Positions 6,698-17,940 of a stretch of DNA of 53,031 bases are shown here, in pieces. A program made the position numbers and the translations under genes. The notes beneath the pieces are model-generated. The model had not been told where the DNA came from. It worked only from the letters and a program-made list of their open reading frames with translations, and did not search any database. The stretch's first letter is position 1; each line of letters starts with the position of its first letter. The stretch covers positions 1 to 53,031 of the forward strand of contig NZ_JALCYY010000037.1 of NCBI RefSeq assembly GCF_022690685.1, read 5' to 3'. This stretch comes from Anaeromyxobacter terrae (GTDB taxonomy: Bacteria > Myxococcota > Myxococcia > Myxococcales > Anaeromyxobacteraceae).

Positions 6698-7840
6698 CTA
6701 GCGCACCGCGGCCGCGGCGGTCACCGCGGCCCCGGCCTCCTCCGCCGCGCGGCCGCCCGCCGCCGGCGCGGCGAAGCGCGCGAGCACCGCCGCGATCTCG
6801 GCGTTCACGTCGCGGAGCAGCTCCGCCTTCTCCCGGAACGGCAGGAACGCGCTCTTGAACCCCTGCACGAGGAGCGTGCAGAGGTCCTCGAGCGTGAAGC
6901 CCATCCGCTCGTGCGCGAGGCGCAGCTCCTTCGTGAGGCTCGTGTCGGTGATGAGCCGGTTGTCGGTGTTGAGGGTCACCCGGAGCCCGAAGTCGAAGTA
7001 GAACTTGAGCGGGTGGCTCTCGTAGTCCGCGACCGAGCGCGTCTGCACGTTCGACGACGGGCACATCTCGAGCGGGATGCGGTGGTCGTTCAGGTAGTTG
7101 AGGAGGTCCCCGTTCTCGCGCAGCCGCACGCCGTGGCCGATGCGGTGGGCCCCGCAGGTGTGGACCGCCTGGGCGATCGACTCGGGGCCGAACGCCTCGC
7201 CCGCGTGGATCGTCACGTTCACGTTGTTGTCGAGGATGAGCTGCACCGCCTCGCGATGGCGCCGGGCCGGGTGCCCCTCCTCCGCGCCGGCGAGGTCGAA
7301 CCCGACCACCCCCTTGCCCTTGTAGGCGACGGCGAGCTCGGCGAGCCGCACCGAGGTCTGCGGGTCGATGTGGCGGATCCCGCAGATGATCACGTTCGAG
7401 CGGATGCCGGTCTCGCGGTTGGCCGCGCGCAGGCCGTCGAGCACCGCGTCCACGATCGCGGTGGGCTTCAGCCCCTGCCTCGTGTGGAGGACCGGCGAGT
7501 AGCGCACCTCGAGGTAGCGCACGTTCTCCGCGGCGCAGTCGAGCGCGAGCTCGTGGGCCACGCGCCGCAGCGCGTCCTCGGTCTGGAGCACCGAGAGCGT
7601 CACGTCGAAGGCGGTGAGGTACTCCTCGAGCGACTCGCACTGCGCGCCCATCCGCACCGCGCGGGCGAGCCCCTCGGGCGTGTCCGCCGGGAGGCGCACG
7701 CCCTGCGCCTCCCCGAGCTCGAGCAGGGTGCCGAGGCGCAGCGAGCCGTCGAGGTGGCAGTGCAGGTCGGTCTTCGGCAGCGCCCGGAGCAGCTCGTCGG
7801 TCACGGGAATCGCCGCGGGGCCGGTGTTCGCGGTCATCAC
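6698..7840 (-). CDS. add: Adenosine deaminase
   Basis: 380 residues. It hydrolyses adenosine (and deoxyadenosine) to inosine and ammonia in purine salvage. The zinc ligands and substrate motifs are visible: TDLHCHLDGSL near the N-terminus, TIHAGEAFGPESI, RIGHGVRL, PLEMCPSSNVQT and LNTDNRLITDTSL (the catalytic Asp region). The first two codons are both Met; either could be the start. The C-terminal ~25 residues are Ala-rich and not conserved. It is the first gene of a likely two-gene unit with ogt. The gap to the divergent CotH-type gene is ~120 bp. Confidence 0.96.
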   Translation of the reverse strand: MMTANTGPAAIPVTDELLRALPKTDLHCHLDGSLRLGTLLELGEAQGVRLPADTPEGLARAVRMGAQCESLEEYLTAFDVTLSVLQTEDALRRVAHELALDCAAENVRYLEVRYSPVLHTRQGLKPTAIVDAVLDGLRAANRETGIRSNVIICGIRHIDPQTSVRLAELAVAYKGKGVVGFDLAGAEEGHPARRHREAVQLILDNNVNVTIHAGEAFGPESIAQAVHTCGAHRIGHGVRLRENGDLLNYLNDHRIPLEMCPSSNVQTRSVADYESHPLKFYFDFGLRVTLNTDNRLITDTSLTKELRLAHERMGFTLEDLCTLLVQGFKSAFLPFREKAELLRDVNAEIAAVLARFAAPAAGGRAAEEAGAAVTAAAAVR

Positions 7841-16229: not shown

Positions 16230-16317
16230 GACCCCGACCTCGACCCCGACCTCGACCTCGACCCCGACCCCGACCTCGACCTCGACCTCGACCCTGACCT
16301 CGACCTCGACCCCGACG
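16230..16317 (+). repeat. GACCYC hexamer array, copy 1
   Basis: About 14-15 tandem hexamers alternating GACCCC and GACCTC (one GACCCT variant), starting 20 bp after the YajQ stop. It ends in GACGTC, a palindrome, after which the array continues in the opposite polarity. Two other arrays of the same hexamer lie within 1.7 kb, all with the C-rich strand on plus. Confidence 0.9.
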
Positions 16318-16434
16318 TCGTCATCGCAATCGCGGTCGTCGTCCCGGTCGCGGTCGTGGTCGTCGTCCCGGTCGTGGTCGTCGTCCCGGTCGTCGTCGTC
16401 CCGGTCGTGGTCGTCGTCCTCCCGGTCGCGGTCT
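16318..16434 (+). repeat. Inverted-polarity hexamer array (GTCGTC / CCGGTC / GTGGTC)
   Basis: Immediately after the GACGTC pivot the 6-bp period continues for ~19 units, but with GTC-type words (GTCGTC, CCGGTC, GTGGTC, GCGGTC), i.e. the opposite strand of GAC-type words. The two arrays form a diffuse inverted repeat that could fold back. No gene is supported in 16210-16568 apart from this and the hairpin that follows. Confidence 0.8.
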
Positions 16435-16527
16435 CTTCCTCGTTCGTCAGCCGCCGCGCCGGGCCTTGCCCGTCACGGCGGCTGAATCGTTCTGCGCGGG
16501 TGGATGGGCGGCGGGCTCGAGCTGGCA

Positions 16528-16576
16528 TTGGGCATCGCGGCCTCCTGTCCGGGGTGAAGGAGGCCGCGATGCCCAA
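16528..16576 (+). promoter_or_regulatory. Leader hairpin 1: 19-bp perfect stem enclosing RBS and start codon
   Basis: Left arm 16528-16546 and right arm 16558-16576 are perfect reverse complements; the loop is the 11-nt GTCCGGGGTGA (16547-16557). The right arm contains AGGAGG (16558-16563), with the adjacent A at 16557 in the loop, and the ATG of the four-helix-bundle gene (16569). The left arm carries CCTCCT, an anti-Shine-Dalgarno mimic. Formation of the stem in mRNA would hide both RBS and start codon. A hairpin of different stem sequence but nearly the same loop precedes the paralogue at 17547. Confidence 0.85.
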
Positions 16577-17036
16577 CACCGTTCTCATCGAGCTCAACCG
16601 CAAGTTCACCCCGACCTCGACCCCGACCCTGACCTCGACCCCGACCCCGATCTCGACCACGCCCCCCATCCCCACCCCCACCTCGACCCCGCCCCTCTTC
16701 CCCTTCCAGACCCTCGACGCGTACCGCTTCGCCCGCGAGCTCGCCGTTCGCGTCCACTCCGCCCGCATCGCCGATCCCGAGCTCCGCGATCAGGCCACCC
16801 GCGCGGCGAAGAGCGCGTTCCTCAACCTGTGCGAGGGGCTCCCCGACGACCGCGCCGCCATGCGGCGCAAGTACTTCCTCTCCTCCGACGGCTCGCTCCA
16901 CGAGGTCGTCGGTGCAGCAGATCTCGCCTGCGCCATCGGGGCGGTCGGGACCGACGACGCCGCGGAGATCCAGGCCCTGGCGGTCCGGCTGCGCGCGATG
17001 CTGCGGGGGCTGCTCCGCAGCGCGCGGTCGGTGTGA
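16569..17036 (+). CDS. Four-helix-bundle protein (23S rRNA-IVS/bAvd-like), with TP/TS-repeat linker, copy 1
   Basis: 155 residues from ATG 16569, which has AAGGAGG five nt upstream. Residues 1-13 ([13 protein letters not shown]) are followed by a ~30-residue linker of Thr-Pro/Thr-Ser pairs encoded by the GACCYC hexamer repeat, then the four-helix-bundle domain from ~45 ([37 protein letters not shown]). The family is usually ~115-125 residues without this linker. Relatives include ORFs in 23S rRNA intervening sequences and the accessory Avd protein of diversity-generating retroelements, which is basic and binds nucleic acid. No reverse transcriptase is visible here. The gene converges on its paralogue (stops 49 bp apart). 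Function unknown; an RNA-linked role is inference. Confidence 0.85.
16605..16697 (+). repeat. GACCYC-type hexamer array inside the four-helix-bundle gene, copy 2
   Basis: Degenerate run of GACCCC/GACCTC-type hexamers with GATCTC, CCCATCC and ACCCCC variants, read in-frame as [16 protein letters not shown] and following residues. Six-base units keep the reading frame whatever their number, so the linker can grow or shrink by two residues at a time. Confidence 0.85.
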
Positions 17037-17088
17037 CCGCGCAGCGGCGCGCGCGTCCCTCGGGGCGCGCGCGCCGCGGGAGCGGTCA
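17034..17088. terminator. Stop-to-stop palindrome, likely bidirectional terminator
   Basis: Outer arms 17034-17040 (TGACCGC) and 17082-17088 (GCGGTCA) and inner arms 17044-17055 and 17066-17077 (12 bp, perfect) enclose a 10-nt loop. The TGA stops of the two convergent genes are the first and last three bases and pair with each other. A very stable GC stem without a T-run; it fits a bidirectional terminator or 3'-end stabiliser. Confidence 0.65.
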
Positions 17089-17547
17089 GCGGACGAGCCC
17101 GGTGAGCAAGCCCACGAGCCGGCTCACGACGCGCGCGACCTCATCGGCGCGAGCGGCCGAGGTGTCCCCGCACAGCGCGGCGATCTCGACGGCGGCGGCC
17201 GCCTCGACGGCCTCGGCGCGAGCGATGGCGAAGGCGCGGGCCTTGTCCGCGCGCGTGACGCGGCCAGCCCCTTCCGCGCAGTTGAGGCAGGCGGACTTCG
17301 CGGAGCGGACGGCCTCGTCGCGGAGCTTCGCGTCGCGGATGGAGCAGCGGAGCACGGAGAGGAGGAGGTCGCGTGCGACGGAGAAGGCGATGAGCTTGTG
17401 GTGCGGGAGAACGGGGGAGGAGGAGGAAAAGGAAGAGGAAGGCGAGGAAGAAGACGAACGGGAGGAAGAGGAAGGAGAAGAGGAAGCGGGAGAGGAAGAG
17501 ATGGAGGAGGACGGAACGGGAAAGAGCGCAGCGAGTCTGTCGGTCAT
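17086..17547 (-). CDS. Four-helix-bundle protein (23S rRNA-IVS/bAvd-like), with Ser-rich linker, copy 2
   Basis: 153 residues from ATG 17547, with AAGGAG seven nt upstream inside hairpin 2. Residues 1-12 ([12 protein letters not shown]) lead into a ~33-residue Ser/Pro linker encoded by a polypyrimidine tract on this strand, then the four-helix bundle ([54 protein letters not shown]). It is clearly a paralogue of the gene at 16569: [19 protein letters not shown] matches [19 protein letters not shown]. The linker sits at the same place but is made of a different simple sequence. The frame is open upstream beyond the hairpin through the hexamer array, but the RBS, the hairpin and homology all point to 17547. 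Function unknown. Confidence 0.83.
17413..17517 (+). repeat. Polypurine (GGAGGAAGA-type) tract coding the Ser-rich linker
   Basis: About 105 bp that is almost wholly purine on plus (runs of GGA, GAA, AGG, with isolated C or T), hence TCC/TCT serine codons on minus. Such a homopurine tract can form triplex (H-DNA). It occupies the same position in the second four-helix-bundle gene as the hexamer repeat does in the first. Confidence 0.8.
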
Positions 17548-17595
17548 GGTTCGGCTCCTTTCACCCCGGGACAAGGAGCCGAACCATGACCGACA
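17538..17595 (-). promoter_or_regulatory. Leader hairpin 2: 23-bp perfect stem enclosing RBS and start codon
   Basis: Arms 17538-17560 and 17573-17595 are perfect reverse complements; the 12-nt loop (17561-17572) reads GTCCCGGGGTGA on minus, differing from loop 1 only by one extra C. On the minus strand, the 3' arm holds AAGGAG and the ATG at 17547, and the 5' arm holds CTCCTT. The stem sequence is unrelated to stem 1, so base pairing and loop, not stem sequence, are conserved. The plus strand of the same stem also shows a mirror AAGGAG-ATG (17586), giving only a 17-codon ORF. Confidence 0.85.
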
Positions 17596-17626
17596 CGAGC
17601 CCCCGAACGCCCCCGCCCATCCGCAG

Positions 17627-17709
17627 GAACGGCGCGTAGCGACGAGAGGCGCAGGCGCAGTGCCACCCACCGGTGGCACGAGCCTGCTGACCGCCCAGCA
17701 GCGCCGTTC
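17627..17709 (+). other. Possible three-arm folded structure
   Basis: Outer arms 17627-17635 (GAACGGCGC) and 17701-17709 (GCGCCGTTC) enclose hairpin 17660-17679 (GTGCCACC, CACC loop, GGTGGCAC) and hairpin 17684-17701 (CTGCTG, six-nt loop, CAGCAG; its last base is shared with the outer arm). It lies between leader hairpin 2 and the third hexamer array. Could be a small structured RNA or single-strand DNA end; no homology known to me. Confidence 0.35.
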
Positions 17710-17722
17710 ACCCAGGGAGGAA

Positions 17723-17940
<218 letters not shown>

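Follow-up and report, generated by a model that had tools for sequence, protein, structure and literature searches.

The nearest known kind of sequence to the locus described here is the intervening sequence (IVS) of 23S rRNA genes that encodes an S23p protein, for example in Coxiella burnetii (PMC4990558), and a role of its open reading frame in mobility is a proposal that has stood open since 1993 (Ralph and McClelland 1993, as cited in PMC4990558). In REP/REPIN systems with a RAYT (TnpA-REP) gene, the gene is flanked by inverted structured palindromes and gene-less palindrome derivatives occur; IS200/IS605 elements carry hairpins at or near their ends, and MITEs are short, with inverted terminal repeats and no transposase. 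The PF05635 family includes RNA-associated members, S23p and the Avd proteins of diversity-generating retroelements (DGRs), and we know of no function of the S23p/IVP proteins.

The window, that is, the whole 53,031-nt stretch of Anaeromyxobacter terrae DNA (own genome, G000) that was analyzed, carries at 16447–17711 a cassette with two convergent PF05635/TIGR02436 four-helix-bundle genes, located in the intergenic region between yajQ and rimO and not in rRNA. An IVS resembles this cassette in its protein family, in being a short selfish segment with complementary ends, which in an IVS are cleaved by RNase III, and in the mobility role proposed for its ORF, whereas the cassette differs in its intergenic position, its multiple copies, the palindromes at its gene starts (H), a separate motif (M) and, often, two convergent genes. 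It is not an IVS, because an IVS occupies helix 25 or 45 of 23S rRNA. Comparison of copies placed the core common to the window and the other copies between TCAGCCGCCGCG (16447) and GCGCCGTTCAC (17711), a length of 1265 bp, in which the two PF05635 genes were the only genes identified, with no transposase and no reverse transcriptase inside the element. The features are as follows:

16230–16433, no strand: left hexanucleotide array (GACCTC.., then GGTCGTCGTCC..), found by TRF and missing at the syntenic G005 site
16447–16485, plus strand: motif M of the left end, TCAGCCGCCGCGCCGGGCCTTGCCCGTCACGGCGGCTGA (motif script, inverted repeat I3, CM match of 37.7 bits)
16528–16576, plus strand: palindrome H1 with the SD and ATG of gene 1 in its 3' arm (inverted repeats; architecture kept in other genera)
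16569–17036, plus strand: gene 1, 155 aa, PF05635/TIGR02436 (profile matches, dN/dS)
16608–16695, plus strand: in-frame hexamer-repeat linker of gene 1 (TPTSTP..), found by TRF and varying in length among copies
17044–17077, no strand: central palindrome between the two stops (inverted repeat I7, 16 bp, 94%)
17086–17547, minus strand: gene 2, 153 aa, PF05635/TIGR02436 (profile matches, dN/dS, AF2, fold match)
17417–17500, minus strand: in-frame simple-repeat, Ser-rich linker of gene 2 (TRF, translation)
17538–17595, minus strand: palindrome H2 with the SD and ATG of gene 2 in its 3' arm (inverted repeats; conserved architecture)
17627–17711, minus strand: right-end module, an inverted repeat GAACGGCGC (17627–17635) .. 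GCGCCGTTC (17701–17709) around M (sequence reading, predicted fold)
17651–17687, minus strand: motif M of the right end, GCAGGCTCGTGCCACCGGTGGGTGGCACTGCGCCTGC (motif script, CM match of 40.3 bits)
17724–17932, no strand: right hexanucleotide array (CGACCC), 35 copies, found by TRF and missing in G005

The mirror layout of hairpin, ATG, repeat linker and bundle domain in two convergent genes, which the initial annotation had proposed, was present in every part, and both proteins scored above the profile cut-offs (gene 1, 39.4 bits for PF05635 with a cut-off of 33.8 and 34.4 bits for TIGR02436 with a cut-off of 24; gene 2, 38.4 and 41.7 bits, respectively). The start hairpins had also been taken as the outer ends of the unit, which they are not, as the two M motifs lie outside both. 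The palindromic stop-to-stop center exists in the window (arms 17044–17059/17062–17077 by inverted-repeat detection) and is probably a bidirectional terminator, but it is not conserved: it is confined to Anaeromyxobacter, the congener G006 has a different palindrome at the equivalent place, and the pairs in G029 and G040 lack it, their genes overlapping stop to stop. Three features had escaped this earlier reading of the letters: motif M, the hexamer arrays and the inverted repeats at the termini of solo elements. At about 7230–7470 of locus L030, a nested insert, AAACCATGGTTCG..GTTTA, splits the center of G006 copy D; it resembles another small palindromic repeat.

Relatives of the cassette, searched with the profile of both genes, were found in 27 of 145 genomes of the order (14 of 46 genera), either as convergent pairs, in several genera, or as solo genes, and the highest copy numbers (10–16) were reached in G010, G011, G014 and G030. 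Named relatives include Anaeromyxobacter oryzisoli, Labilithrix, Polyangiaceae and other Myxococcales MAGs; no relatives were found among viral contigs, and a phage origin was rejected. The inverted gene pair is not confined to this locus. The comparison used one genome per species and included draft assemblies. The own genome contains two convergent pairs, the second ending at a contig edge, and the complete genome of G006 contains four intact pairs, one decayed pair (with a frameshift in gene 2 and only a fragment of gene 1) and one solo left end. The four intact G006 cores are 96.3–97.9% identical over about 1.15 kb, the window core being ~78% identical to them, and the copies adjoin unrelated genes (by eye, yebC, cydB, malQ, a phosphoesterase and a hydrogenase).

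The comparison of syntenic loci with and without the cassette, suggested together with the initial annotation, revealed empty sites. In the sister genome G005, which matches the window at rimO with about 98% identity and has no PF05635 match, the yajQ–rimO spacer measures 73 nt, with neither cassette nor arrays, versus 1804 nt in the window; two further sites, G006 A and B, have no element in either G005 or G000. Near-identical copies at unrelated sites, empty sites in relatives, inverted M motifs, H at the gene starts, nested and decayed derivatives and purifying selection together make it very probable, from sequence comparison, that these loci form a family of mobile elements; the earlier suggestion of a mobile element without its own transposase is borne out by the multiple copies, the empty syntenic sites, the recurring hairpins and inverted pairs and the absence of a transposase inside. 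Mobility is well supported by such comparison (site polymorphism and copy number), and the mechanism is what we infer. The family was previously unrecognized: the open-access literature, to which our search extended (subscription papers lay outside it), yielded no paper describing such elements or linking PF05635 proteins to REP-like ends or to Anaeromyxobacter.

The SD and ATG of each gene are enclosed in a perfect palindrome H of 19–23 bp, with a 19-bp stem (16528–16546/16558–16576, 100%) and an 11-nt loop in H1 and a 23-bp stem (17538–17560/17573–17595, 100%) and a 12-nt loop in H2. A perfect stem of at least 12 bp at the start codon was found in 39 of 91 family matches (fragments included) versus none of the 415 control ORF starts taken from the same loci; by eye, some members missed by the stem script have loops exceeding 21 nt (in L175 and L176) or stems with interruptions (in L167 and L170), and L177, L182 and L186 are examples of family members without detectable M or H. 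Such hairpins beside four-helix-bundle ORFs, for which a pattern search had been proposed, are present across Anaeromyxobacter and other Myxococcota, and H recurs in other families with different stem sequences of 9–24 bp and the ATG ~10–15 nt into the 3' arm. The loop sequence GTCCCGGGGTGA, which had been expected to be shared, is not conserved: only its 3' end, commonly TGA or CGA beside the SD, recurs across members, and the fixed DNA pattern of loop and SD gave only one exact site in the own genome. Translational coupling to a leader ORF ending at the H-loop TGA was rejected; such an ORF is present in the window, yet several loops end in CGA. An integron attC site was likewise rejected on sequence inspection, the 7-bp core not being kept (H1 of the second own copy, GTTGGGC/GCCCAAC; G006, GTTTGGC/GCCAAAC). 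Because the arms are perfect, the opposite strands of 16528–16576 and 17538–17595 also present SD and ATG, facing outward and opening short ORFs of 20 and 17 residues.

Outside each H lies the second structured motif, M, an undescribed sequence of 37–39 nt that is inverted at the two ends and consists, in order, of an outer stem, (T)CGCGCCA, an inner stem, a loop, the inner stem, TGTCACTG and the outer stem. Among 26 distinct sequences, stem covariation was 0.310 versus 0.101 after shuffling, a value reached in 0 of 500 shuffles; 32 cells had changed on both sides of the stems, and slid controls gave at most 0.097. The alignment was built from matches to a pattern requiring some complementarity, by which the percentage paired is biased upward. 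M had no Rfam match at E ≤ 0.1. CM searching located it in 13 of the 145 genomes; almost all occurrences adjoin PF05635 genes, there are at most 16 per genome and three in G000, and it was not found in members of the genus without these four-helix-bundle genes. The two M ends of the window are inverted but different in sequence, and the right-end module terminates in ..GCGCCGTTCAC, its GTTCAC end being common to the G006 copies. Left of M in L027–L030, the G006 copies have in common an extra left repeat, GTTAG..CCGCTCGTCCCGAGCG..GGACGGCGCGGAGTCGAGGGGCGA, missing from the window copy.

The solo elements of G010, G011 and G014 carry M upstream of the gene and an inverted, near-identical M just past the stop. 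In L184, L194, L196, L197 and L200, near-identical terminal inverted repeats of 80–110 bp contain M, as in a MITE or TIR transposon; unlike MITEs, the cassette encodes a protein under purifying selection. Derivatives include an internal deletion (L235), gene-less M within arrays (L236, L238) and a decayed element keeping both ends (L234). No target-site duplication could be defined in the comparison with the G005 empty site, because the element edges are lost in the hexamer arrays into which they merge. Neither an excised nor a circular form of the element was observed.

Copies of gene 1 encode 133–166 aa, with linkers of different length. Its dN/dS was about 0.2–0.36 in most comparisons (~0.3), and that of gene 2 was 0.05–0.16 in most comparisons (NG86, short sequences in both cases); judged by these ratios, both genes are under purifying selection and gene 2 is the more conserved partner. 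The AF2 model of the gene 2 product comprises a disordered linker followed by a confident four-helix bundle (pLDDT ≥ 90 in 100 residues), with 2gsc/XCC0516 as the best fold match (TMt about 0.8, E 9e-5) and BT_0352 (2rld) also close. According to Lin et al. 2006 (as cited in PMC4990558), XCC0516 forms a homopentamer.

Our preferred explanation, which we consider likely, is that the cassette belongs to a family of small Myxococcota mobile elements (about 0.5–1.4 kb) that lack a transposase and carry only one or two S23p/IVP-family genes. In single-stranded DNA, M and H would fold into hairpins serving as recognition ends, as in the IS200/IS605 and REP systems; whether the ends do act as DNA hairpins we regard as an even question. 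The four-helix-bundle protein, probably an oligomer, would bind these structures and recruit a host or in-trans recombination or replication activity. Family membership and linkage indicate that the protein probably binds its own palindromes, M or H, and its action on the element ends is put forward tentatively. The same protein may control its own translation through H, because the H stem sequesters the SD and ATG, and such control is likely in addition to mobility. The hexamer arrays at the edges would be either the place where the element lands or the result of slippage during insertion. A bolder version, in which the S23p/Avd-family protein is the only mobility protein, recognizes the start and end palindromes as DNA hairpins and transposes via host replication or repair, generating the hexamer arrays, is possible, though we do not favor it. 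If it were true, the elements would constitute a transposon class without a recognizable recombinase, and the orphan S23p/IVP family would have a purpose.

The question of S23p/IVP mobility becomes testable outside rRNA in these elements, which lie between genes in multiple copies, encode proteins of that family under selection and have both empty sites and defined ends (M and H). The family also makes it possible to ask how elements move without a visible transposase, and a start codon within a perfect palindrome could tie expression to single-strandedness.

Among the other explanations, the one surviving best is that these are self-regulated RNA-binding genes in which H hides the SD and ATG, M is a protein-bound operator and the protein level gates translation, genomic spread being a side effect. 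The fixed offset of ~10–15 nt at which H holds the SD and ATG in its 3' arm, the position of M ~80–150 nt upstream of the gene in the sense orientation, and the RNA-associated members of the protein family all accord with it. So do the Labilithrix-type loci, in which M lies inside H, within one long hairpin enclosing the start; the inverted repeat there spans ~80–150 nt, and for L115 the predicted MFE is −120.6 kcal/mol with an RNA z of −10.8. However, an inverted M is also present past the stop in solo elements, which have no second gene start there, and the stems lack the excess of G·U over A·C expected from selection on a sense-strand RNA: non-Watson–Crick cells numbered 12 G·T and 12 A·C in H stems, and 11 and 19, respectively, in long hairpins. 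These two observations hint that the palindromes act as DNA. A regulatory leader alone, moreover, leaves the empty sites and the multicopy spread unexplained. RNA self-regulation is thus rather unlikely as the whole account, and it is compatible with the elements being mobile.

It appears less likely still that a Y1 (RAYT-like) transposase resident in the genome recognizes M or H and mobilizes the element in trans, the four-helix-bundle protein being an accessory. The hairpin ends do resemble IS200/IS605 and REP substrates, every Anaeromyxobacter genome searched, with one exception, has weak Y1 matches, and G010, G011, G014 and G015 have at least 13–21 Y1-like genes each. The distribution of Y1 genes nevertheless does not track that of the element: G001, G002, G005, G007 and G018 have Y1 without the element, G017 has the element with no Y1 among the matches listed, and no Y1 gene among these matches shares a contig neighborhood with M. 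The cassette also differs from REP/RAYT systems in that the flanked gene belongs to PF05635, encoding a four-helix bundle and not a Y1 transposase, and in that M occurs in few copies linked to the gene, three in G000 and at most 16 in any genome, compared with the more than 100 palindromes of REP systems. It differs from IS200/IS605 in having neither Y1 TnpA nor TnpB, only the two PF05635 genes being found in 16447–17711, as well as in the inverted, TIR-like ends of the solo elements and the gene start inside a palindrome. G018 is among the genomes with at least 13–21 Y1-transposase-like genes, together with G010, G011, G014 and G015, in another family of the order.

Passive spread, with the genes as cargo and homologous recombination acting between scattered hexanucleotide arrays, is improbable. 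At 49 of 70 loci there are arrays no more than 450 bp away, and they cover 11.5% of bases in that range versus 0.5% farther away; G006 copies sit within same-orientation arrays, and G000 and G006, where most copies of the genus are located, are very rich in arrays. The pattern matches numbered 1292 in G006, 1063 in G000, 149 in G008, 59 in G005, 44 in G004, 10 in G003 and 0 in three genomes (G000–G008), the two highest values being those of the genomes with convergent cassettes. Yet the empty sites of G005 have no array to recombine with, several G011 elements with little or no array keep their inverted M ends, and the near-identical TIRs and conserved M and H would be unexplained. The hexamer unit differs by lineage. 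In Anaeromyxobacter, arrays also occur without the element and as coding linkers; therefore, they are a target or by-product of the element and not a unique part of it.

That the genes are ordinary 23S rRNA intervening-sequence protein genes or DGR accessory (Avd) genes is highly improbable: protein family and four-helix-bundle fold are the same, with the Avd-type chains of the DGR reverse-transcriptase complex 8ub7 as more distant matches (target-normalized TM ≤ 0.78, weak E-values), but the genes lie outside rRNA, RVT_1 is absent from G000, the canonical IVP genes of G003, G004 and G008 have no adjacent M and, by eye, those of G003 and G004 have no start hairpin.

Hexamer arrays were also observed as in-frame TPTSTP-type linkers or inserts in lysA-, DNA polymerase III alpha-, ABC transporter- and chemotaxis-like genes (L099–L102). 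Other array-flanked segments, in L098 (G006:C1:397500-402500), at about 8000–9300 of L029 and in L055, contain HNH-endonuclease-like coding remnants, one lying beside cassette copy C and one beside a solo left end, and are possibly a second repeat family using the same hexamer arrays.
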